Virus record (IMG/VR): IMGVR_UViG_3300013132_000132
Location: 1 to 34,045 of that record
Length of the DNA: 34,045 bases
Source of the DNA: a virus
Direction: 5' to 3' (one strand)
The notes below the pieces were generated by a model. It saw only the letters and a program-made list of their open reading frames with translations, was not told the DNA's origin and did not search any database. Shown here piece by piece: positions 2,529 through 25,089 of this stretch. Made by a program: the position numbers and the translations under genes. Each line of letters opens with the position of its first letter. The first letter of the stretch is position 1.

Positions 2529-5500
2529 TTATTTTTTTGCTTTTAACATATCAACTTCTTGTTTTAGCTCTTTAATAGCCTCAACTAATAGTGGAACAAG
2601 TTTCTCGTATTGAATTGTCATGTAATTATCACCGGATTTGCTATTACCAGCGAAATCCGTATCAAACGGAGCCGGTTTGACTATATCCGGTAAAACTTTT
2701 TGCACTTCGTCGGCTAGTAATCCAATTTGTTTTTCTTCTCTACTAAACCCACCGAGTTTGTAGGCCAATTCGTTAAAATTATACGAAACACCGTTTAGTT
2801 GAGATACTTTGTCTAAAGCATAATCGATATTTACAATATTTTCTTTTAATCTACGATCAGAAGCAAATGCTGTAATATTATTACGAACGTTCAAATCCCC
2901 AGTTGGTGCAGTTAACCACATGGCATATGAAGGTGGAAGACTATTATCGGCTGCTGTATTGGTTCCCCACCACCAAGCATCGGGACCAATCGTTGCTCCG
3001 AACATTTTTTTGTTCGTTCCATTGGCCCATATTATGGCATCGCCTTCATTCAAAACTAATTTTTTCTGCCAACCAACAGTAGCCCATAAACCATTCATTC
3101 CAATGTGTGATGGGTTAGTTGTTCCAATGGTTAAAACATCATTTGTGGCATCGTATGTAAGTCCACTATCGCCTACTATATCTGTGCCGGTTGAAGAATA
3201 TAATATCTGCCCGGCAACAACCGAAACTGTTGCTCCACCAGGAGAAGAAGCACCCTGGAGTCCTTGAATGCCTTGTACCCCTTGTGCCCCTTGTACCCCT
3301 TGTATTCCCCCTAATGGAAAATACAAATCAAATGCTCCCGCGGTAGAAGTTGCAGTCCAACTCGATACCGGTAGATTTGACATCTTATAAACAACATTGC
3401 AATCTAAATAATTGCCACCGGTATTAAAAATTGCTGTAGAAACTAGAAAATCAATATATCCACTATCTTCTGCACCGGCGAGTGAAGGATTATGAAATCT
3501 TAGTATCCAATTTGTATTTGCTGCTAATTTTCTTAGTTGATCTGCGTTATTGTCCGAATATCCGGATACTGCATTAATTTGTATCGATGTAGTAGACGCT
3601 ATATCAAGTTGGTCGGGTCTATACTGTCCAAGTACTACAGTAGAATTTGAATAAACATATCCCCCGGCCCAAAGTCCGCCGGCTCCTAAAACACCAGTTC
3701 CTGTAAGTCCCTGCCGTCCCTGTATTCCCTGTATTCCCTGAACACCTTGTATTCCCTGAACACCTTGTATTCCCTGTATTCCCTGTATTCCCTGTATTCC
3801 CTGCCGTCCTTGAATACCTTGAATACCTTGTATACCCTGGAATCCCTGGAATCCCTGGAATCCCTGAATTCCCTGGCTTCCCCGAACTCCCTGAATTCCC
3901 TGGAATCCTTGAATGCCTTGTTGTACCGCGTTTGATCCTTGTATACCTTGACGACCCTGAAATCCTTGTATACCCTGAAATCCTTGTATACCCTGAAATC
4001 CTTGAAATCCTTGAAATCCTTGAATTCCTTGAACAACTGCATCTGAACCTTGCAGTCCTTGCTCGCCTGTTATACCTTGAAATCCCCGGAATCCCTGAAA
4101 TCCTTGGATTCCCTGAATTCCCTGAAATCCCTGGAATCCTTGAATGCCTTGTTGTACTGCGTCTGATCCCTGGACTCCCTGAATACCCTGGAATCCTTGT
4201 ATACCTTGACGACCTTGTATACCCTGTAATCCCTGTAATCCCTGAATACCTTGGCGTCCTTGAATTCCTTGCTGTATTGCATTCGACCCTTGGACACCCT
4301 GAATTCCCTGTATGCCCTGTACGCCCTGTATGCCCTGTACGCCCTGAATTCCCTGAATTCCCTGATCGCCCGGTATAACGGACGCAGGACCCTGTATACC
4401 CTGTATACCCTGTACACCCTGTATACCCTGTACACCCTGTACGCCCTGTACGCCCTGTATACCCTGTATACCCTGTACACCCTGTACACCCTGAATTCCC
4501 TGAATTCCCTGTACACCCTGTATACCCTGTACGCCCTGTACACCCTGAATACCTTGTTCGCCCTGAATTCCCTGAATTCCCTGATCGCCTGGTATAACAG
4601 ATGCAGGACCCTGTATACCCTGTACGCCCTGCATACCCTGTACGCCCTGTACGCCCTGAACTCCCTGTACACCCTGTACACCCTGTACACCCTGTACACC
4701 CTGTACGCCTTGCTCTCCTCGAATACCCTGTACGCCTTGCTCTCCTCGAATACCCTGTACACCCTGTACGCCTTGAATACCCTGTATACCCTGTACGCCT
4801 TGAATTCCTTGTAATCCCTGAACACCCTGAAATCCCTGAATGCCTTGTGGTCCTTGTATTGCACCAACATTAATCCATTGTGGAGGAATTTCGGTTGGGC
4901 CCCATACATACAAATTACCATCAATTATATATCCGTCTGACAAACTATCAGGTGGAGTAAATCCTGCTCCTGGTAAATCGTTATAAGTAGCAAGAGTACC
5001 CAAAATTCTTAATCCTGGACCAACCTGACCTTGTAATCCTTGGATTCCTTGTATGCCCTGAATTCCCTGAATACCTTGTATGCCCTGAATGCCCTGACGA
5101 CCTTGTACTCCCTGACGACCTTGTATTCCTTGCGATCCCTGAATACCTTGTGTTCCCTGAAGGCCCTGTATTCCCTGAAGGCCCTGTATTCCCTGTATAC
5201 CTTGTTGTACTGCATCAGATCCCTGAGTTCCCTGTATACCTTGTTGTCCTTGGATTCCCTGAATACCCTGAATACCCTGAATACCCTGTATACCTTGGAC
5301 ACCTTGTTCGCCGCGAATACCTTGAATTCCCTGTACACCCTGAGGGCCAATAAAAGGTCCAACATTAACCCAACTTACACCATTGTATACCCACAGATCT
5401 CCTAATGCTTCGTCAATGACACCATCACCAACCACAACACCCGGAAAGGCAGTATTAAGTGTAGTTTGCGGATTTCCAGGAGGAGCAACATTAACATCAG

Positions 5501-5912
5501 CAACTGTTCCTAAAATTGTGATCGAAGGACCATATCTTCCTTGAATGCCTTGAAATCCTTGTATACCTTGTATACCCTGTATACCCTGTGGACCAGCAAA
5601 CCCGTCGGGCCCAGTTTCTACCCACTGGGCACTATTGCCATCGTCTATCCAAGTAAATTCTTTACCGGTATCGATATCAATCCATCTATCGCCAGCAAAT
5701 AACGGAGTTACTAAAGGATCAGGAGGAGTTGATTGAAAATAATATATTGAACTAGTAGCTACACTCGATTTACTAGCAAATCTTAGACTATTGCCGTCTT
5801 TATCAACAACTACTAGATCGTCTGGTTGTGCAGGAGTCCCGTCAATTCTTGTATAAGAATTCGGTGCATCTTTAAGTCCTTTTACAAAGCGATCATCAAG
5901 TAGCCGTGGCAT
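2529..5912 (-). CDS. Tail fibre with collagen-like repeats and S74 self-cleaving chaperone
   Basis: 1,127 residues from ATG 5912; an in-frame TTG at 5918 is less likely. It overlaps the end of the upstream gene by 17 bases. Order: a globular N-terminus (about 1-110, probably the virion anchor); collagen-like Gly-X-Gln triplets interrupted by two related insertions of the type ILGT...[13 protein letters not shown]; a non-repetitive region at about 740-860 followed by a short second collagen stretch; then a head domain and a C-terminal Peptidase_S74 intramolecular chaperone of about 110 residues starting at Ser1018 (SDRRLKENI) and ending in a Lys-rich helix. In S74 proteins this domain drives trimerisation, then cuts itself off just before that serine; this is inferred from the family. 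The Y position of the triplets is nearly always Gln, while X is Ile, Val, Phe, Leu or Arg. Likely role: host-recognition fibre. Confidence 0.85.
3701..5592 (-). repeat. Nine-base coding repeats of the collagen-like fibre shaft
   Basis: Degenerate 9-base units (plus strand CCCTGTATA, CCTTGAATA and relatives) encode the Gly-X-Gln triplets. They occur in three blocks, about 3701-4858, 5024-5344 and 5537-5592, separated by the two non-collagen insertions. A further small patch lies at about 3250-3308. Stretches near 4380-4550 and 4660-4720 are almost identical from unit to unit, pointing to recent slippage or recombination. The repeats keep other frames open, which creates spurious long ORFs on both strands. 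Confidence 0.9.
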
Positions 5913-6549
5913 TAGCAATCTCCAATAAACTTACAGTGACATTTACTACACCGGCATGTTCTGCACTTATATACAATCCTAATTTTGATGTTAAAATTAA
6001 GTTTCCATTCAATGGGTCAAATGCATTGCTAGGAGCAACTGAGTAATCTTTTACTAAATTCATTTGGGTGTTTGTCAACAAATCTATTACTTTAGCAGTT
6101 ACTTTAACAGAACTATCGATGTCAATGAATAAATCAGTTATACCTGCCGACGAACCAGTAGGAACATATTCTGCACCTCCGATGGTTTCACTTATTGTAA
6201 AAGTAGTTGCGGTGGGTTTATCGACTACATAATATTTTTTACCTAAAGTCACACCGCCGTACGACGTATCTCTAAACGTCACCATCATACCTTCTTCAAG
6301 ATCAGTGCTGTCAGCGCAGGTAAATCTATTGTTAACAGCACTTACTTCGGTGATCAATTTATCATCAATATATGTCCAAGTATTAGCGCATTGAATAGTT
6401 AGAACCACTGAGCTTACTTCTTCAGGTAAAACACCAATATCTAAGCCGTTTTGCCCTCGGCCAATGTCAACTGCATAGATTAATGTGTCAGTCGCTGCTG
6501 TTGTTATTGGAACTCGAACATTCTTAAATTTAAAAATCGGGGCGGCCAT
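5896..6549 (-). CDS. Small virion structural protein sharing a beta module with its neighbour
   Basis: 217 residues, ATG at 6549 with a good AAGGAAG ribosome site that overlaps the end of the upstream gene. I do not recognise a named family. Residues about 70-130 form a module of the type TCADSTDLEEGMMVTFRD followed by GKKYYVV and TTFTISE. The same pattern recurs four times in the 1,548-residue protein just upstream, so the two genes share an exchanged or duplicated domain. The rest is beta-rich with no signal peptide or catalytic motif. It is the middle gene of a three-gene unit (large structural protein, this protein, tail fibre), translated in close coupling. This suggests a fibre connector or baseplate-peripheral part, which is inference from position. 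Confidence 0.7.
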   Translation of the reverse strand: MAAPIFKFKNVRVPITTAATDTLIYAVDIGRGQNGLDIGVLPEEVSSVVLTIQCANTWTYIDDKLITEVSAVNNRFTCADSTDLEEGMMVTFRDTSYGGVTLGKKYYVVDKPTATTFTISETIGGAEYVPTGSSAGITDLFIDIDSSVKVTAKVIDLLTNTQMNLVKDYSVAPSNAFDPLNGNLILTSKLGLYISAEHAGVVNVTVSLLEIANATAT

Positions 6550-11300: not shown

Positions 11301-12245
11301 TTATGTATTTGCTATTTGTACAGTGGTGTCGAGAGTTGGCGAGTCAAATGTCCAACGAACAGATGCATCGGTGGCAAACTCGTGCCCAGCAGCACCATAA
11401 CGAACTAAAGTAGCTCTGTGTGCAGTAATTTTTTTGACATAGTAAGTTTTACCAGAACTGTCTGTAGCAGTGATATCCATCTCTCCTGCTGCATCGGCAT
11501 TTCCGTCAGTGACTAACAAACATTTTTCAGTGCCGTCGGCAGTTTCAACTAAGAATCTCCGACTACCGACCTGTTTGACAATATCACCAATTTTACGACT
11601 GCCACCAGTCACAAATGCATATATTGTAATAGCATTCTCATTATTGCCAATTAGACCACCAATTGAATATGTTTCAAGTACGCTAGTACCAGCGGCAACA
11701 CCTGCACTGAATGTAACAGCGGCATCAGCGGCATCAGTATAACCAGAACCTGGCTCGCTAATAGAAATGCTTTTTACACGATAAGTCACATCAACTTGTG
11801 CATTGCCATCGCCACTACCACCCGTAGTAGCAACAGCACTGGTAATACCTGTTAAAACAGTTTGATCACCACGTGCAGCACCAGTTCCAGTAAAGTTAAC
11901 TCCGGTCACAGCACCAGTGACTCCGTCAACTGTGGCAACATAAGCAATAGCACCGCCTGCACCAGTGATTGTTAAAAGATCACCAACTACATAGTTAAGG
12001 CCACCTTGACCGGCTGTGACTGCTACAGTATTACCTTCCATGTTAGTTGTGCCAATGGCAGTAACTGCGCCAACACCGGTTAAATCAGGCGCACTAAATG
12101 TCACTGTTGGACGAACAGTATAAGATCCTTGATTGGTGATAGTGACACTAGCTACACGATTACCACCCAATCCATCGTCGGCAGTAGTACTGCTTGAACC
12201 AAGATTTCGATTACCAAAGTATTTTTTATGAAGCGGACGTCCCAT
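11301..12245 (-). CDS. Virion structural protein, 314 residues (MGRPLHKKYFG family)
   Basis: ATG at 12245 has a strong ribosome site (AAGGAG, six bases away). The protein starts MGRPLHKKYFGNR, an opening I associate with conserved proteins of marine T4-like phages near the head genes. The middle (about 25-200) is a low-complexity Gly/Thr/Val-rich beta region with repeated VTGAV and GTG motifs. The C-terminal part (about 210-314) has KQVGSRRFLVE...CLLV and YYVKKITAHRATLVRYG, and looks like a small compact domain. Highly expressed signals (own late promoter, structured leader, own terminator) argue for an abundant virion part such as a head decoration or tail component; the exact role is unknown. 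It is transcribed alone. Confidence 0.65.
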   Translation of the reverse strand: MGRPLHKKYFGNRNLGSSSTTADDGLGGNRVASVTITNQGSYTVRPTVTFSAPDLTGVGAVTAIGTTNMEGNTVAVTAGQGGLNYVVGDLLTITGAGGAIAYVATVDGVTGAVTGVNFTGTGAARGDQTVLTGITSAVATTGGSGDGNAQVDVTYRVKSISISEPGSGYTDAADAAVTFSAGVAAGTSVLETYSIGGLIGNNENAITIYAFVTGGSRKIGDIVKQVGSRRFLVETADGTEKCLLVTDGNADAAGEMDITATDSSGKTYYVKKITAHRATLVRYGAAGHEFATDASVRWTFDSPTLDTTVQIANT

Positions 12246-12275
12246 TTGTTTCTCCTTAAAGTTGGCGTTCTAGGC

Positions 12276-12296
12276 CTACGCGGTGGGTTTCCGCAT
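12276..12296 (-). CDS. Candidate six-codon upstream ORF (MRKPTA) in a late leader
   Basis: On the minus strand an AAGGAG at 12309-12304 stands seven bases before ATG 12296, followed by CGG AAA CCC ACC GCG and TAG. This is a better ribosome site than many full genes here have. The ribosome site lies inside the first stem-loop of the leader. It may be a leader peptide affecting translation of the 314-residue gene 30 bases downstream, or only chance. Confidence 0.3.
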   Translation of the reverse strand: MRKPTA

Positions 12297-12301
12297 AAAC
12301 T

Positions 12302-12315
12302 CTCTCCTTGGAGAG
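12302..12315 (-). promoter_or_regulatory. Stem-loop near the 5' end of a late mRNA
   Basis: Minus strand CTCTCCAAGGAGAG folds on itself, and lies a few bases from the start expected for the TATAAATA box at 12325-12332. Two further short stems (GCGG/CCGC and GCGT/ACGC) follow before the ribosome site of the 314-residue gene. It may stabilise the mRNA or mask the upstream AAGGAG. Confidence 0.45.
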
Positions 12316-12324
12316 CGAACAATA

Positions 12325-12332
12325 TATTTATA
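12325..12332 (-). promoter_or_regulatory. T4-late promoter box TATAAATA
   Basis: An exact match on the minus strand to the T4 late consensus, placed between the terminator of the 75-residue gene and the leader of the 314-residue gene. The expected start is near 12319, giving a leader of about 75 bases. In T4 such boxes are read by host polymerase with gp55 and gp33; gp55 is encoded in this window. Confidence 0.75.
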
Positions 12333-15674: not shown

Positions 15675-16526
15675 TTAGTTACTGCCAGACTCTATACTAT
15701 GTTTGTTAACACTGGATTCTTCACCTTTTTTAGCACTGGCTTTATTGGAATAACCCTTGGTGCGTGCACCGGGAACATTTTCATATTGCCCTGCATGTGG
15801 AAGATTTCCGCGTCCTTTTGTTCCATAGTTGTTAGCCGTTTTGGGAGAATGACCGTCTGGGGCAACTTCGGCTCCGCCTTTAACGATGTTTGCAGCAGAT
15901 CCGCCCATGTTATTGGCTTTTTGTAAAGCAGGTGATTTCTTCTGAATCGCTGCGCTACCACCGGCACCAACTTCGTGTCCTTCGGCAGTATTTGAAGGAG
16001 CAGCAACTTTTTCTACGTATTCACGAACAAGATTTTCGTCCATTTCTTCTTCGTCGTCTTCTTCGCCTTCTTCTTCGCCGGCCATAATTTTGTCAAATTC
16101 GGCTTTAAGCTCGTCGAGTGCAGCTTCTAGATCGTCAACACGGTCTTCAATTCCTTCTTCGCCCATGTCGGACATTTCTTCTTCGCCACCCATTTCTTCC
16201 TCGGAATCCATGTCACCCATGTCGTCCATGCCTTCTTCGTCGCCCATTTCTTCCTCGGAATCCATGTCACCCATGTCGTCCATGCCTTCTTCGTCGCCCA
16301 TCGGCATGTCCATCATATCGTCTTCCTGGCCTTCGTATGCACCGGTATGATCGACTGAAATCTCTTTTACAAGATCCTCGACCTGACTTCCGCCCATTGG
16401 ATCATTTTCTAATAGGCTTTCGTAAATGCCACGGCTTTTTTCAACTACTATATCGTGAAATAATTCACGAGCAAGATCGTGTTGCTCGGAAATAATGTAT
16501 TCAATAAGTTTTTCGTACTTGTTCAT
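15675..16526 (-). CDS. Acidic prohead core-type protein in the gp67/gp68 position
   Basis: 283 residues. ATG 16526 is chosen because AGGAG stands six bases upstream; a TTG at 16541 lies before that site. The N-terminal 60 residues are a mixed helix (MNKYEKLIEYIISEQHDLARELF). Residues about 75-165 are extremely acidic and Met-rich (repeats of MGDEEGMDDMGDMDSEEE, then DLEAALDELKAEFDKIM and a Glu run). The C-terminal 110 residues are Gly/Asn/Lys-rich and disordered-looking. In T4 the small acidic core proteins gp67 and gp68 lie between gp20 and gp21; this gene occupies that place and has the right character, so a core scaffold component cut by gp21 is likely. Homology to either T4 protein is not shown. 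Confidence 0.65.
   Translation of the reverse strand: MNKYEKLIEYIISEQHDLARELFHDIVVEKSRGIYESLLENDPMGGSQVEDLVKEISVDHTGAYEGQEDDMMDMPMGDEEGMDDMGDMDSEEEMGDEEGMDDMGDMDSEEEMGGEEEMSDMGEEGIEDRVDDLEAALDELKAEFDKIMAGEEEGEEDDEEEMDENLVREYVEKVAAPSNTAEGHEVGAGGSAAIQKKSPALQKANNMGGSAANIVKGGAEVAPDGHSPKTANNYGTKGRGNLPHAGQYENVPGARTKGYSNKASAKKGEESSVNKHSIESGSN
16191..16298 (-). repeat. Perfect 54-base tandem duplication inside the acidic core gene
   Basis: Two identical 54-base copies, 16191-16244 and 16245-16298, each encode 18 residues of the Asp/Glu/Met-rich segment. A third, diverged partial copy lies towards 16140-16190. Because synonymous sites are identical, the duplication is recent. Confidence 0.9.
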
Positions 16527-16551
16527 AAGAACTCCTGTCAAATGTTAAAGT

Positions 16552-18637: not shown

Positions 18638-20941
18638 TCAACTGTAAGCGTTCTTTAAAAGTTCGGTAGAAACATCCTTGTGATCACCTATAGCGGCCAG
18701 CATACCTTCGTTAATTTCAATTAATAAATTAAACTTTTTAGTTTGTTCGGCTAAAGCATTCATTAATGGTGTCACAATATCAATCCCGCCTGTACTAGGT
18801 TCTGCTTCGTTGACTATAGAAGATTTTACAGCAATTGTTCCGCCTTCGGGGATGACCATTTCGTTTCCGTGCAATACTGCAAAATATCCCGATCTTGGTC
18901 CGGATATAACCCCACCTTTTGCACCCTCAGGCAAGGGATCAACGATAGTCACTGGCAAAGGATTATTTCTGTCTGCATTTATAGTGACCGGTCCGGCACC
19001 GCCTGTCGGTGATTGACCCGATGATGTTTGTTTTCCTTCACTTTCGCTTTGTTGACGTATCTCTTTGTTAATCTCCTCTATTCCCTGAATACGAGTTTTT
19101 TCATCTTTTAGAAGATCGCCGATTTGTTTTTTTCTTTCGGCATCTAATCCAAGAGTTTCCAACACTGTTTCGGCCTGATTTGCATCCTTTACCATTGCCA
19201 CTTGAACTTTTTTAAATGCTTCACCAAATCCCTCAAGTCCGGGTATTTTTGACAACATAGTAGACAGCACACCCAAAGTACCCAACAGTAAACTACTGTA
19301 TTTGGGCAATAGCTCTGTGGCAATTTTTTCAAATTCAATAGCAAAATTCTGAGAAGCAGTAGTTGCTTTTCTGAAATTTGCAGTTAATTCATCACGTGCT
19401 TCTTTTTGTTCTCTTGCTGATCGCTCAGCATCCTCAATGGACTCTTTAGTGGTTTTATTTCTAAAAGCCAATTCACCACCTAATATCTTAGCTAATTCAC
19501 TAACTATACCGCCCACCCCAGCAGCACCAGCTAATCCAATTTCTCTTAAATTCAATATTTCCTGTTTGGTTTGTTCGCCTAATTGTTTGTTAGCTTCTCT
19601 TACCGACTCGGGTGTCAACTGCCCTCTTGCAAACTGATCTGCATATGAGTTAACACTATCAGTTAATCCCTGACTCATAGCCGCAGCAGCAGCGCCCTCA
19701 CGATTGATCACAGAACCAAAATTAACTACATCCATGAAATTACGTTGTTGCAATTCACTCATATTGGCCATTGCCATTACAACATTCTGACGCTGAACTT
19801 CATCCATCCCTGCTAATTTTTGCTGGAACGCCAATTGACTAGCTGCTTGTCTAGCAGATTCCATGCGTTTTTTAGCATCTTCACCAGTTGATGCTGCAAT
19901 AATTCTTAAATTTTCGGCATATTTTTCAGTCTGCTGCGCTACCACAGCATTACTTGCACGTAGTGGTCCACCACTCTGACGCATATCACGCATGACTTCT
20001 GCGGTTAGTGCAGCCTGTTCTTCAAAACTAAAACCGAGATTTAATAATCTCATTTTCATAGTCTCGCCGCCTTTCTCCAATACACCACCCATCCTTGCCG
20101 CAGCTTCTCGTACCCCAATGCCTAGATCGGCTAGTATAGGACCACTGGACTTTACTACCGAACTAAACTGTGTTAGTGTTAATCCGCTTTTACTGGCTGC
20201 GTCTCGCATTCCGGTAAGACCATCAGCATAAAGAGCACCTGCGTTGGCCATCCCAATGAAGGCAGTGTTAGTTTTTTCTAATTCTTTGCTTAAAATATCC
20301 AATGCAAAGTTAACACCCTGCGCGGCCATTCCGCCCATTCTCAACAAACCACCGGCTGCATAAGTAAGTGCACCGGCCAATTTGGCCATAGGATTTTGTA
20401 CAGCAAATAATGCTGCACCAAAATTGGTTAACATCTTACCGCCCGATGTTAACCCAGTACCGATTAAGCCCAAGCCAGCAGATAATGCTCCGCCGGCCAT
20501 TTCTGTTGCACTACCGCCACCTTGTAAGGTTCGTATAAACCCGCCCATAGTAGAAGTCAATGTTGTCAATGTATTTCTGAAAATAGCAGTGGCATTGTCC
20601 ATATTAAACAAACCACTGATAAAATTATCTTTAGCTAATTTGACTTGAGCATCGTTAATTCTTCTTAGTTGTTCAGCCTGTTCTGCTCTATTACCATACT
20701 TGACTACATTTTGTCTAAGTTCATTAAATTGTTGAGCCAATGTCGATGCTTGATTTCCTGCTATACTATATCGACCTCTTAGATTTTCTAAGCTAGCAGA
20801 TATATTAACTGCTCCGCTAGTTGCTCTAGAATTAGCAGCAGTAGATCGATCGACACTGTTTGAATAGACAATACTGGAACTACGCATACGCTCAATGGCG
20901 TCAACTAGTTGTCTAACCAGATCATCGGTATTTGTTGCCAT
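18638..20941 (-). CDS. Tail tape-measure-like protein (gp29-type position)
   Basis: 767 residues from ATG 20941. Long helical, Ala/Gln/Glu-rich regions (about 1-120 and 260-560) flank a Gly/Ala/Leu-rich hydrophobic stretch at about 130-215, the usual plan of a tape measure that fills the tail tube and sets its length. Near the C-terminus (about 670-695) is the KGGVISGPRSGYFAVLHGNE motif common in phage tape-measure-like proteins. In T4, gp29 is the baseplate hub and tape measure, encoded near genes 26 and 51; here the gene lies back to back with a gp26-type gene. T4 gp29 is 590 residues, so this would mean a somewhat longer tail if length scales. Another hub-associated structural role remains possible. 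Confidence 0.7.
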   Translation of the reverse strand: MATNTDDLVRQLVDAIERMRSSSIVYSNSVDRSTAANSRATSGAVNISASLENLRGRYSIAGNQASTLAQQFNELRQNVVKYGNRAEQAEQLRRINDAQVKLAKDNFISGLFNMDNATAIFRNTLTTLTSTMGGFIRTLQGGGSATEMAGGALSAGLGLIGTGLTSGGKMLTNFGAALFAVQNPMAKLAGALTYAAGGLLRMGGMAAQGVNFALDILSKELEKTNTAFIGMANAGALYADGLTGMRDAASKSGLTLTQFSSVVKSSGPILADLGIGVREAAARMGGVLEKGGETMKMRLLNLGFSFEEQAALTAEVMRDMRQSGGPLRASNAVVAQQTEKYAENLRIIAASTGEDAKKRMESARQAASQLAFQQKLAGMDEVQRQNVVMAMANMSELQQRNFMDVVNFGSVINREGAAAAAMSQGLTDSVNSYADQFARGQLTPESVREANKQLGEQTKQEILNLREIGLAGAAGVGGIVSELAKILGGELAFRNKTTKESIEDAERSAREQKEARDELTANFRKATTASQNFAIEFEKIATELLPKYSSLLLGTLGVLSTMLSKIPGLEGFGEAFKKVQVAMVKDANQAETVLETLGLDAERKKQIGDLLKDEKTRIQGIEEINKEIRQQSESEGKQTSSGQSPTGGAGPVTINADRNNPLPVTIVDPLPEGAKGGVISGPRSGYFAVLHGNEMVIPEGGTIAVKSSIVNEAEPSTGGIDIVTPLMNALAEQTKKFNLLIEINEGMLAAIGDHKDVSTELLKNAYS

Positions 20942-20952
20942 GGTTTAAATCC

Positions 20953-20960
20953 AATAAATA
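20953..20960 (+). promoter_or_regulatory. T4-late-type promoter box AATAAATA (plus strand)
   Basis: 7 of 8 match, 34 bases before ATG 20995 of the gp26-like gene. Expected start is near 20966, five bases inside the region transcribed from the opposing box at 20977-20984. Confidence 0.5.
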
Positions 20961-20976
20961 TTTGGTGCTTTTCTAT

Positions 20977-20984
20977 TATTTATG
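20977..20984 (-). promoter_or_regulatory. T4-late-type promoter box CATAAATA (minus strand)
   Basis: 7 of 8 match, about 36 bases before ATG 20941 of the tape-measure-like gene. It faces the plus-strand box at 20953-20960, so the two transcripts would overlap at their 5' ends by a few bases. Confidence 0.5.
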
Positions 20985-20994
20985 GGATAAAAAC

Positions 20995-21831
20995 ATGTCA
21001 ACTAATCCGCTTTCAAATTTCTTTAGGCAACCTGCTATACATCTAAAACTGCCCAGCGGAGGAAAATATTGGCCTGATGGCGCATTGGATTTACCAATCA
21101 CCGGCGAAATACCCGTTTACCCAATGACTACCAAAGACGAAATTACACTGCGAACTCCTGATGCACTATTAAATGGTGCAGGTGTTGTGGATCTGATTCA
21201 TAGTTGTTGTCCAAATGTGTCCGATGCATGGAACATGCCCAGTATTGATGTTGATGCTACAATTATTGCTATACGTATTGCCAGCTACGGCCAAAACATG
21301 GATTTTGAAAATCGTTGTCCACATTGTAATGAAGATAATACTCACGCCATAGATCTTACTGCTATATTAGATAACATCAAAACACCCGATTTTCAGACAC
21401 CAGTGAAGCACAACGGGCTAACATTTAAGTTGAAACCGCAGAGTTATTTCAGTATTAATGCCACTAATAAACAGAATTTTGAAGAGCAACAATTGCTGAG
21501 AAATGCCAACGACCTCGAAGATGAAGAAGAAAAACTTCGTGTTTATACTGAACAATTACAGAGAATTATTGTACTCAGTATCAAATTGGTCACCGATTGC
21601 ACCGATTGTATTATAACACCCGACGGTATTAAAGTCACTGACCCGGACCATATCAAGGAGTTTTACGAACGTGCCGAAAGTCGACTAGTTAATTTGATCA
21701 GGGATCACATTTCAGCAATAGTCAAAGATTCAGCTATACCAGATATTGGTGTCACCTGCGGTAGTTGCGATAAAGAATATTCAATAAATTTAACCTTCGA
21801 CTACGCAAGTTTTTTCGGAAAAGGCTTTTGA
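20995..21831 (+). CDS. 26: Baseplate hub assembly protein, gp26/T4_baseplate-type
   Basis: 278 residues from ATG 20995 (a longer TTG start at 20932 would run through the promoter region and is rejected; GGGAT lies six bases before the ATG). The opening (NPLSNFFRQPAIHLKLPSGGKYW, in pattern), PVYPMTTKDEI, RTPDALLNG and SCCPNVSDAWNMPSIDVDAT are hallmarks of the T4 baseplate gp26 family as I know it. It has two CxxC pairs, C108/C111 (CPHC) and C255/C258 (CGSC), which may form a zinc site. Residues about 160-220 are a charged helical insert. T4 gp26 has 208 residues. The stop TGA overlaps the TTG start of the next gene, so the pair is translationally coupled. Confidence 0.8.
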   Translation: MSTNPLSNFFRQPAIHLKLPSGGKYWPDGALDLPITGEIPVYPMTTKDEITLRTPDALLNGAGVVDLIHSCCPNVSDAWNMPSIDVDATIIAIRIASYGQNMDFENRCPHCNEDNTHAIDLTAILDNIKTPDFQTPVKHNGLTFKLKPQSYFSINATNKQNFEEQQLLRNANDLEDEEEKLRVYTEQLQRIIVLSIKLVTDCTDCIITPDGIKVTDPDHIKEFYERAESRLVNLIRDHISAIVKDSAIPDIGVTCGSCDKEYSINLTFDYASFFGKGF

Positions 21832-22046
21832 CCCTGAGCAGGGAAGAGATCGTAGAGTTATTAGAAAAATACGATCAAGAGTCAAAAGCCATACGTAAAG
21901 AAGCATTAAAGTTTACTTGGTACATGCGTGGTGGATTGAGTTATAACGAAGCTATGGCTCTTAGTCATCAAGAGCGTGAGATAGTGGCTGCTATAATCAA
22001 AGAAAATATTGAAACTACCGAGAAAACTAAACTTCCATTTTTCTAA
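21828..22046 (+). CDS. Small partner of the gp26-like gene, possible baseplate-hub assembly protein
   Basis: 72 residues starting at TTG 21828, whose TG is shared with the TGA of the gene before (TTGA overlap); no ATG or GTG lies near enough to replace it. The protein is helical and charged (SREEIVELLEKYDQESK), with WYMRGGLSYNEAMALSHQEREIV in the middle and TKLPFF at the end, a layout I associate with a short conserved gene directly after gp26 in marine T4-like phages. In T4, gene 26 is followed by gene 51, a hub assembly factor, but similarity to gp51 is not shown. It is the last gene before the structured non-coding region. Confidence 0.65.
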   Translation: MTLSREEIVELLEKYDQESKAIRKEALKFTWYMRGGLSYNEAMALSHQEREIVAAIIKENIETTEKTKLPFF

Positions 22047-22105
22047 GTCGCTATTATTCATTTATACCAGCAGTTTCATTGTTCTGAGCGGTGCTACACA
22101 CCGCT

Positions 22106-22171
22106 AGTGATTAGATTTTTTCCTTCATTCGCTATCGCTCACGTCAGTAAACAAATCTAATCACTGTTTTT
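22106..22171 (+). terminator. Long-loop stem with U-run after the gp26-like unit
   Basis: AGTGATTAGATTT (22106-22118) and AAATCTAATCACT (22153-22165) form a perfect 13-bp stem around a 34-base loop, followed by GTTTTT. A GC-rich stem-loop AGCGGTG/CACCGCT (22087-22105) abuts it. This could end the gp26 unit, or it may be the first domain of the RNA described next; the long loop is unusual for a simple terminator. Confidence 0.5.
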
Positions 22172-22194
22172 AATATTGATATTATTATGTTCTT

Positions 22195-22700
22195 TGGGTT
22201 AGTATTCGACGAAGATGTAGTCAATATTCGCCCGTCCGCAGGGCGAAATTGATATAGTGCATTCGACGCGAGTGTCATATCAATCAACTAAAAGAGCTGC
22301 CTTTTACTACCTTTCTTGAATATTCCACCCAGGGTTGGGGCGGACTACCTTGATTGATCTTGTGCGTAAACTGCAAGAAGCGGTCGGTCTGTACTTCTAT
22401 CGCTCTAGTATTCGCTGTGGATCTCTCCACAACCGGCGGGCTGGCAGGTATACCGTAGTTGACCAATATCCTGTCCAGTCAGGTTGTATCTTTTTCACAG
22501 AGCCTGAATCCTTAAAACCATGATCGTTTTATGCCGCTCTTTGCTGTGGTTAACAGCGTCCCACCGGCGGTCATTACACGAGCCGGATCACCTAAGAGCA
22601 CAGAGACTAACACTCTGCATCTGTGGCTGCAAGCTGAATTTTAGGGCACTGACCTAAAATTGCCTGAACTTTACCTTAATTTGAGCCTTGATTGGGAATT
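22195..22700 (+). ncRNA. Candidate large structured non-coding RNA
   Basis: The 779 bases between the stop at 22046 and ATG 22826 hold no credible gene, but are full of inverted repeats. Examples: TCAAT-TTCGCCC/GGGCGAAATTGA (22221-22252, one bulge), TTGATAT/ATATCAA (22249-22283), TAAAAG/CTTTTA (22289-22306), TGTGGA/TCCACA (22416-22431), CCTG/CAGG (22470-22483), ATGCCGC/GCGGTCAT (22531-22574, one bulge) enclosing GCTGT/ACAGC (22543-22557), CACAGA/TCTGTG (22599-22625) and AATTTTAGG/CCTAAAATT (22637-22661). My hand count gives about 50% G+C for 22321-22620 against about 37% for 21841-21900 in the preceding gene, as expected for selected RNA structure in an AT-rich genome. Strand is assumed from the neighbours. 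Size and phage setting recall the large ornate RNA classes GOLLD and ROOL, but I cannot show membership. Ends are uncertain; no clear promoter or strong terminator was found. Confidence 0.55.
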
Positions 22701-22718
22701 TGACGTGGTGTCTAGTGG

Positions 22719-22752
22719 TGCCATGATGTGTGTGCCTATATGTGTGCCATGA
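22719..22752 (+). repeat. Short direct repeats between the structured region and the nuclease gene
   Basis: GTGCCATGA occurs twice and TGTGTGCC occurs twice within about 35 bases. No pairing partner or function is apparent. The remaining bases to 22825 are AT-rich, with a weak AAAATT/AATTTT stem and T-run at 22775-22800 that might end an upstream transcript. Confidence 0.5.
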
Positions 22753-22813
22753 ATACAGCATTACTTATGTAGATAAAATTAACGCAGGAATTTTTTATTT
22801 ACACCCGTTTGTC

Positions 22814-22821
22814 CTTAAATA
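22814..22821 (+). promoter_or_regulatory. TAAATA-type box four bases before the nuclease start
   Basis: CTTAAATA matches the late box at 6 of 8 positions. It is too close to ATG 22826 for a normal leader, the same arrangement as at gp55 and the 76-residue gene. Chance in AT-rich DNA is possible. Confidence 0.25.
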
Positions 22822-22825
22822 TTCT

Positions 22826-23326
22826 ATGCCTAAAAAGACTAACGGAAAACAAAAGGGAAATAGTTTCGAACGTAAGATCGCTAATCTACTCAGCGATCGG
22901 TTTCAAACTTATTTGGGAGTCGAAACTGGTTTTAGACGTAATAGCGATTCTGGAAGCTATTTTGGAGGAACCAATAAAACTCGCACCGAAACGCATAATT
23001 TAGACTATGCAATATTTGGGGACTTAATTTGTCCCACCGACTTTCGATACGTTGTTGAATGTAAACACTACAAATCTCCGCCAAGTTGGCAGGCATTTGT
23101 GGATGGTACAGTTAAACAATGGGATGATTGGATTGCTCAAAACGACCAAGATAGCATCAGTGCTAAGAAACCTGGTGTGTTGATTATCAAATATAATAAC
23201 GTTAGCGAATTATTATTTTCCCAACACCACATCGAGCAATTGAGACCCTGTTTTATATATCAAACTAGATATGTTTATAGATTGTCGGATTGGCTCACCC
23301 TGCCCGACAATCAATTTTTCTATTAA
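22826..23326 (+). CDS. PD-(D/E)XK nuclease, resolvase-like
   Basis: 166 residues from ATG 22826; a longer frame from 22730 is rejected because it begins in the non-coding repeats. No ribosome site is visible. The start is Lys-rich (MPKKTNGKQKGNSFERKIANLLS), with an early Glu in the first helix. FRRNSDSGSYFGG (about 50) and DYAIFGD lead to VECKHYK at about 90. The pattern E...GD...ExK is the core of the PD-(D/E)XK nuclease fold, and the overall plan resembles Hjc-type Holliday junction resolvases and related phage nucleases. The N-terminal G-x2-FERKIA fits that type. It meets gp46 tail to tail, stops sharing one TTAA, and lies beside recombination genes 46 and 47, consistent with a role in DNA branch processing. 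The exact substrate is inferred. Confidence 0.7.
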   Translation: MPKKTNGKQKGNSFERKIANLLSDRFQTYLGVETGFRRNSDSGSYFGGTNKTRTETHNLDYAIFGDLICPTDFRYVVECKHYKSPPSWQAFVDGTVKQWDDWIAQNDQDSISAKKPGVLIIKYNNVSELLFSQHHIEQLRPCFIYQTRYVYRLSDWLTLPDNQFFY

Positions 23327-25089
23327 TTATTCTCTTGTTGATTAAATGTAGTAAAGCCATTTTCCTTAACTACACTTAGTATATTACCTACACGAGCACT
23401 GAGTTCTTCTCTGTGGCTAATTAAGAAAATAGTTTTCTTACGATCCCGTACCATACTTTTTAGTATGGCTAAACTATTCTCCACACCTATAGTGTCTAAT
23501 CCACTATCAATCAATTCATCTACAATCATAAAGTTAATGGGTTGATATAGACTTTCCCAAACATCTCTAAATGCCCAACTTAGACTTAGAATAAGTCGAT
23601 TGCGTTCGCCACGACTGAGATTGTCGAAATCCAAATCACGACCCAATTCAGTAATACTGACACTGAGATCATTTTGAAAACTCACAGTATGCGGTAATCC
23701 AATACGATCTAGATAATAACTCAAACGCTGATTTAGATAACTGAGATTTTGATCGATAATGCGTTTACGAACAAAACTGTCTTTGCTGGTCAGTATCTTC
23801 AACAAAAACTCTTGATGATCTAACAATCTCTTGAATTCATTGATCTGAGTATAATCAATGTCAGTCAATCCAGTTTGTTCCAATTCATCAATTTGTTCTT
23901 GATAGGGATCAGTTTCTTGGCTGCGGCTGAGATATTGAGTTTGAAGATTACTCAATTGATTGCGATGATCGTATGCTGCTTCTAGTGAGTCATAAAAGAC
24001 AGTGGGTTCGGGTCCCAATACAGGCGATGTGTCTAATTCGTTCTGTACTGCGATCATATCCGTGCCCAAACTCACCAAGTGTTCGCGAATCTCCGCCAAT
24101 GCGGTGGTTTTTTCGTCTCGTAGTTCCTGATTCTTGCTGTTGTGTAATGCTTGATCACATTCCGGACAACGATGCTCCAACAGTTTAGTGATTTGAATGG
24201 TCAAACGATCGGCACGGTCAGTTTCGGTTTTGATGCTGATAGCCAAGGCCTTTAGTGCTTTTTCCAGTTCCAACCGATAATCTCTATCCCGGATCCACTG
24301 CGATTTTAGTCCGTGATTGAGAATCTCTACATCAATATTCAACAATTTGAGACTGTCGATGTCGGCTTGTAGAGTGGCCAGATCTGTGTCACGTTTTTTA
24401 CGCCAAACACTTTGTTTGAGTTTGAGACTGGCAATTTGATTATTGATCTTTTGATTGAATTCCTGTTGTGTACGTATACGAAATTCTTCCTGAGTGATCA
24501 TGTCCTTGACATTGCGATTGAGATCTTTTAATTGATCGGCTTTCTCACTCAACAATGTAATACCCAACAATTGTTCAATAATGATACGTTGATCATTTGC
24601 TCGCAAACTCAGAAAAGGTTCGGTGTAGGTATTCAATGCCACAACATGTCGAAACATGTCATGGCTCATGTTCAACAGTCGATCGATTTCCTGTTGAGTT
24701 TCTCTGCTGTCACCTTGAGCATCGTCTGTGGGTTTTTGTTCTTGACCACCTACAAAGAATTTCATTGTATTGGGTTTGCGACCCCGCTCGATGCGATATT
24801 CCACACCGCGAGATTCAAATTCCAAAGTCACTAACATGCCTTTTTCGTTGGTACGATTAATGAGATTGTCTTTGCGAATGTTGCTGAGTGCTTGACCGTA
24901 TAGAGCGTAGCTGATGGCATTGGCCAACGTGGTCTTCCCAACACCATTTCTTGACCCAGCGTCGTTACCACCGAGATCCAGATTTTCTCCCAAGACCAAC
25001 GTGAGGTTGCCGGATTCCAATGTTATGGCCTGAGTGACATTACCTACGCTGAGAAAGTTTTTTAGTGTGATATTTTTGAGGCGAATCAT
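23323..25089 (-). CDS. 46: Recombination endonuclease large subunit, gp46-like (Rad50/SbcC type)
   Basis: 588 residues. ATG 25089 overlaps the gp47 stop as TAATG. An SMC-type ATPase that works with gp47 to resect DNA ends for recombination-dependent replication. Visible: the Walker A GSRNGVGKTT at 45-54; a long coiled-coil arm on each side of a zinc-hook CPEC at about 306-309; the ABC signature LSRGERN at about 493; a Walker B with NFMIVDELID at about 518-527; and an LISHREEL switch region near the C-terminus. Length is close to T4 gp46 (560). The last gene of the 55-47-46 unit, it converges on the nuclease gene with overlapping stops and no room for a terminator. Confidence 0.95.
   Translation of the reverse strand: MIRLKNITLKNFLSVGNVTQAITLESGNLTLVLGENLDLGGNDAGSRNGVGKTTLANAISYALYGQALSNIRKDNLINRTNEKGMLVTLEFESRGVEYRIERGRKPNTMKFFVGGQEQKPTDDAQGDSRETQQEIDRLLNMSHDMFRHVVALNTYTEPFLSLRANDQRIIIEQLLGITLLSEKADQLKDLNRNVKDMITQEEFRIRTQQEFNQKINNQIASLKLKQSVWRKKRDTDLATLQADIDSLKLLNIDVEILNHGLKSQWIRDRDYRLELEKALKALAISIKTETDRADRLTIQITKLLEHRCPECDQALHNSKNQELRDEKTTALAEIREHLVSLGTDMIAVQNELDTSPVLGPEPTVFYDSLEAAYDHRNQLSNLQTQYLSRSQETDPYQEQIDELEQTGLTDIDYTQINEFKRLLDHQEFLLKILTSKDSFVRKRIIDQNLSYLNQRLSYYLDRIGLPHTVSFQNDLSVSITELGRDLDFDNLSRGERNRLILSLSWAFRDVWESLYQPINFMIVDELIDSGLDTIGVENSLAILKSMVRDRKKTIFLISHREELSARVGNILSVVKENGFTTFNQQENN

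Follow-up and report, generated by a model that had tools for sequence, protein, structure and literature searches.

What is encoded by the gap at 22047–22825 of this phage sequence? The window, by which we mean the whole stretch of DNA analyzed, is a 34,045-base virus record from IMG/VR that carries T4-like genes, and a preliminary description had proposed that the gap holds a large structured phage RNA. We conclude, with a probability of about 95%, that the minus strand, at approximately 22203–22634, holds a phage gene whose product is a large structured noncoding RNA. This RNA is a divergent representative of a widespread class, and the 5′ domain of that class is, in other lineages, Rfam’s Polynucleobacter-1.

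The gap and its surroundings

On one side of the gap lie a gp26-like baseplate hub gene (20932–21831, plus strand; phrog_150, E = 1.6e-19) and a small plus-strand ORF in gp51’s place (21828–22046) that has no family match and is named by position only. On the other side lie a gene for a phage PD-(D/E)XK nuclease (22826–23326, plus strand; PF24608, E = 5.8e-18; phrog_244, which annotates it as RusA-like) and gp46 (SbcC-like; 23323–25089, minus strand; phrog_77, E = 1.2e-93). The window also carries gp47 (SbcD-like) and the late sigma factor gp55. Elsewhere in it, a 1129-aa ORF with very long collagen-like repeats (2529–5918, minus strand) is probably a tail fibre, and a 288-aa ORF with tandem acidic repeats (MGDEEGMDDMGDMDSEE; 15675–16541, minus strand) adjoins the capsid genes. 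Rfam also matched a freshwater-2 RNA (RF02980, 56.7 bits) at 12243–12332 on the minus strand; it sits directly between an exact TATAAATA (a T4-type late promoter, 12325–12332) and the beginning of the gene at 11301–12245, and so has the appearance of a 5′ leader belonging to a late phage gene.

No supported ORF spans 22047–22825, where the two listed ORFs encode 60 and 62 aa on opposite strands. GC content was 0.455–0.51 in segments across 22200–22699 versus 0.33–0.40 in the surroundings. Perfect inverted repeats of at least 6 bp numbered 17 in the gap versus 7.6 ± 2.3 in mononucleotide shuffles (0 of 60 had as many), and those of at least 8 bp numbered 4 versus 0.6 in shuffles; the arms ATGCCGC/GCGGTCAT and GCTGT/ACAGC that had been reported are present. 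All Rfam models, at the gathering cut-off and at E up to 10, gave no family in the gap, and ARAGORN together with Rfam (E up to 10) gave no tRNA, tmRNA or RNase P RNA there; ARAGORN found no tRNAs near the RNA elsewhere in the window. A DNA similarity comparison of the window stretch with 50,697 phage records returned no match. The preliminary description was right that the gap is free of genes, richer in GC than its surroundings and packed with inverted repeats, and, as far as these tools reach, that it is devoid of those three RNAs.

It had, by reading its hairpins there, implied the plus strand, and in this it was mistaken. When the 779 nt were folded, the plus strand was unremarkable (z = −1.14; 2 of 20 shuffles equally low) and the minus strand was better than its shuffles (z = −2.91; 0 of 20). 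Folding of the refined 432-nt span gave z = −2.6 for the minus strand (2 of 200) and z = −1.17 for the plus strand (29 of 200).

A covarying core shared among phages

Searching with the nuclease gene yielded two relatives, L002 and L003. In L002, whose nuclease protein is 57% identical, the corresponding intergenic region has a 32-base piece around GGTTGTATCTKTTTCACAGAGCC in common with the window. A pattern scan of IMG/VR with GTTGTATCTNTTTCACAGAG returned at least 119 stretches, and the flanks of the motif were complementary, with many different sequences, in nearly all of those listed. A second IMG/VR scan used a piece of hairpin P5, GGGTACMGGNNNACCGCCTCYG, and returned at least 120 stretches, which removes the bias of having used the loop of hairpin P3 as the search pattern; R1, a covariance model of the core built without the window, matched 99 of the 100 loci newly fetched in this way, among the matches listed. 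In the window R1 found 22508–22375 on the minus strand (52.0 bits, E = 1.5e-11, E-values of R1 being rough owing to a shortened calibration), with a next best match of 5.9 bits. The P3 motif alone is worth 19–23 bits, as seen in the chance matches L133 and L135, so about 30 of the window’s 52 bits come from the rest of the core.

The core was examined in an alignment (A1) of 33 dereplicated sequences of 113–120 nt, aligned by sequence alone. Under the named structure 96.0% of cells were paired versus 72.2% in shuffles, and the covariation score was 0.653 versus 0.207 ± 0.016 in shuffles (0 of 500) and 0.075–0.141 when the structure was slid; since the structure came from the very alignment on which it was scored, and relatedness is lost in the shuffles, stems with three to four pair types in all 33 sequences weigh most. 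P3, P4, P5 and a pseudoknot (columns 77–82 with 115–120) all changed on both sides, and covariation of the core was strong, including the pseudoknot between CCG-NNNN and the P5 loop. Having served as the search pattern, the P3 loop does not vary in A1; in the loci from the P5 scan, the inner P3 stem shows compensatory variation (TGT/ACA, CGT/ACG, TGC/GCA). The 5′-domain hairpin P2 also has support. The closing stem P1 was tested three times in all: the wide-window test gave no signal (own 4.37 versus swapped 4.41), an anchored test gave 3.68 versus 3.04 ± 0.14 (0 of 500), and the stem is moderately supported as real.

On the minus strand of the window, the stem of P3 (CAGG/CCUG, 22480–22506) closes the conserved loop GCUCUGUGAAAAAGAUACAAC and is followed by the long, sequence-variable hairpin P4 (22441–22478). 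The R1 alignment places the 5′ strand of the pseudoknot, GCCGGU, at 22432–22437 and its 3′ strand, ACCGAC, at 22383–22388 within the loop of hairpin P5 (AGAAG/CUUCU, 22376–22398); five of the six pairs are kept with new bases, and one is a C·A mismatch. The covariation in aligned homologs that had been suggested as a check is thus strong and, together with membership of a widespread family, upholds the proposal of a large structured phage RNA.

The RNA is read from the minus strand because the key covarying pairs on that strand include G·U and never A·C (column pair 106–125 is G·U in 29 of 33 aligned sequences), because the alignment folds better on it (−58.7 versus −46.3 for the other strand), and because sigma70-like promoters lie upstream on the same strand as the RNA in L036, L046, L047, L075 and L088. 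In L047 the site is TTGACT-16-TATAAT, with a predicted start at the first stem of the RNA. Strong promoter sites (at least 10 of 12 matches), counted over all loci, came to 13/86 on the RNA strand versus 5/86, a modest excess.

The class is widespread in phages, spanning T4-like and jumbo aquatic phages, and almost undescribed. L004, found through gp26, matched R1 at 49.7 bits, and the RNA is also present in contigs of 186–347 kb. The best R1 match in the L003 region lay in the expected place and strand (6.5 bits, E = 0.1) with pseudoknot strands CCGUGUG/CACACCG, which is suggestive only that L003 may carry the same class. Among genome contigs the P3 motif gave three matches, two of them inside coding sequence and judged to be chance and one real, in Terasakiella pusilla DSM 6293 (NZ_JHYO01000055.1; a 7-kb contig with an R1 match of 39 bits and paired repeats). 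This contig also encodes a serine resolvase and a transposase-like ORF. R1 found nothing significant in the Melnitz, Atu_ph07, Campylobacter CP39 and ICP1 genomes, and DNA similarity of four relatives to phage records was limited to the neighboring nuclease gene, in Melnitz phages. Two stretches, L141 and L026, proved to be one 302,518-base jumbo-phage contig with two copies of the RNA. The L026 copy has a core match of 98 bits to R1; the L141 copy has a 5′ part like RF01718, the Rfam model of Polynucleobacter-1 (35.5 bits), and paired GCATGAA repeats, with no R1 core match.

Extent, placement and paired repeats

We place the RNA at approximately 22203–22634 on the minus strand (5′ end near 22634, 3′ end near 22203; about 430 nt) around the R1 core match; both ends are approximate and predicted, the 3′ end being set at the second of two direct repeats. 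The 5′ part resembles that of L018 when compared by eye. The RNA is accordingly smaller than the 779 nt first proposed, and 22047–22202 probably lies outside it. Two strong plus-strand hairpins at 22087–22165, with similar hairpins in relatives, probably terminate transcription of the late operon that lies upstream, gp26–gp51; a terminator scan found none at this site, the hairpin loop being too long for the scan, and the scan found no terminator-like site on the minus strand of the window. The spacer that separates the RNA from the divergent nuclease gene (22635–22825, assigned to neither strand) contains repeats of the GGCAC type, resembling those found 5′ of the RNA in relatives. Repeated units of the UAGGCACA type stand directly 5′ of the RNA in several phages, with many in L026 and, in the window, at 22680–22760 on the minus strand. 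No minus-strand promoter for the RNA was recognized in the window. TGTAAATA at 22796–22803 (minus strand) is one mismatch from the T4-type late promoter and is a candidate only; a late promoter of this type was rejected for the RNA, as the window contains no more sites resembling TATAAATA than chance would give.

Most members are found at a single junction, where they follow gp46/47 and converge with gp26; the others occur by themselves, in some cases behind sigma70-like promoters. Among the matches listed, 225 loci could be oriented: 160 have gp46 upstream in the same orientation, and gp26 and the gp51-like ORF are downstream and convergent in 140 and 151, respectively. Roughly 29 of these 225 listed loci have none of the three within 4 kb, in part because some loci are short. 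In many loci the RNA begins close to the preceding gene’s stop codon. The window’s nuclease gene is inverted relative to that of L002, leaving about 190 bases between the two divergent units.

Beyond P5 on the 3′ side is a hairpin with CTC-X before it and TCT-X after it; X is a sequence of 7–8 nt whose two copies are identical within a phage and different between phages. Among the matches listed, 107 distinct loci displayed 25 different 7-mers with the copies 49–67 nt apart; loci were kept only where at least 6 of 8 letters agreed, and their number is thus no measure of how frequent the repeats are. A longest-repeat test differed only moderately from shuffles, and it is the fixed place and the variety of X that count as evidence. 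In the window X is CGUCGAAU, present after CUCG at 22261–22268 and after UCUU at 22204–22211, around the hairpin UUCGCCC/GGGCGAA (22227–22247, all minus strand), and in the Terasakiella copy GGTTGATG occurs twice. No conserved complement of X was found elsewhere in the RNA, and the simplest inference is therefore a partner outside it.

Possible roles and relation to known RNAs

The reading we favor, at somewhat less than even odds, is an independently transcribed, trans-acting RNA that would present two identical sites to one partner. We infer that the RNA is stable and is transcribed by itself or, in many of the relatives, at the end of the gp55–gp47–gp46 operon. The loci lacking the usual neighbors, and the window’s nuclease gene pointing away, favor a unit of its own; against this, gp46 precedes the RNA on the same strand in most relatives, which also fits an operon tail, and the window yielded no minus-strand promoter. 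The RNA would fold into a compact core held by the pseudoknot and act in trans through its two X sites, which flank a hairpin. Both would bind the same phage- or host-specific partner, perhaps a dimeric protein or a complementary nucleic acid, with the RNA serving as a two-site scaffold or decoy. A more doubtful extension is that this is a new class of large trans-acting phage RNA in which the X repeats form the recognition part, both copies binding one partner and changing jointly whenever it changes, making each RNA a two-site adapter or decoy for a phage- or host-specific target.

Two competing explanations stand out, a multimeric ornate RNA and a 3′ element belonging to the gp46 operon. 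As an RNA of the GOLLD/ROOL type, it would assemble into a defined homomultimer able to hold or enclose other molecules late in infection, and its size, pseudoknot and phage setting recall GOLLD and ROOL, which form RNA-only nanocages (PMC12286853). We nevertheless think this unlikely: there is no sequence or model match to either, the RNA is about half the size of GOLLD and has no tRNAs nearby in the window, and no conserved self-complementary loop was noticed. As a cis-acting element it would end and stabilize the gp55–gp47–gp46 transcript or insulate two convergent operons. The frequent position behind gp46 and facing gp26, and the starts close to preceding stop codons, speak for such a role, but the RNA also exists without gp46/47 and behind promoter-like sites of its own, the preceding gene is inverted in the window, and the structure far exceeds what a terminator needs; this too appears improbable. 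Least credible is an antisense regulator, with minus-strand read-through silencing gp51 and gp26. The convergent placement and the lack of a minus-strand terminator-like site would allow it, yet strong hairpins stand between the RNA and these genes, the RNA is also found without them, and the conserved fold would be left unexplained.

Together, our results turn an orphan motif of 2010 into one domain of a much larger RNA common in aquatic phages, and add its strand, approximate boundaries and a covariance model. Paired repeats evolving in concert are an odd rule that points to a specific partner, and the copy in Terasakiella pusilla, a sequenced isolate, opens the way to experiments without an uncultured phage.

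In 2010 Weinberg et al. (PMC2864571) listed Polynucleobacter-1, from Burkholderiales and fresh water, as probably cis-regulatory. Three loci fetched through gp26 alone (L005, L006 and L012) carry RF01718 on the same strand as an R1 core of 29–33 bits, and in L036, L046, L039 and, weakly, L030, among contigs with the P3 motif, the RF01718 match stops 23–56 nt before the motif. Given this adjacency on one strand, RF01718 is, in some lineages, the larger RNA’s 5′ domain, although its 141 positions include neither the core nor the pseudoknot nor the paired repeats. The window had no RF01718 match even at E 10, the gathering score being 37 bits, and is therefore filed with the larger class and outside that Rfam family; of the earlier alternatives, a new family or a divergent known one, each is partly right, the known family supplying the 5′ part in relatives and the window itself going unmatched. 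A literature search of incomplete coverage returned no other description of this RNA. Identity with GOLLD or ROOL was rejected, with no Rfam model match at E up to 10, in keeping with the earlier statement that the sequence could be placed in neither. All are large structured phage RNAs with pseudoknots, but the present one differs from those two in sequence and architecture, in its length of about 430 nt and in having no tRNAs nearby. Phage ICP1 likewise has a long intergenic RNA, a noncoding RNA of about 800 nt that is its most abundant transcript (PMC7567579), whereas R1 has no significant match in that genome.
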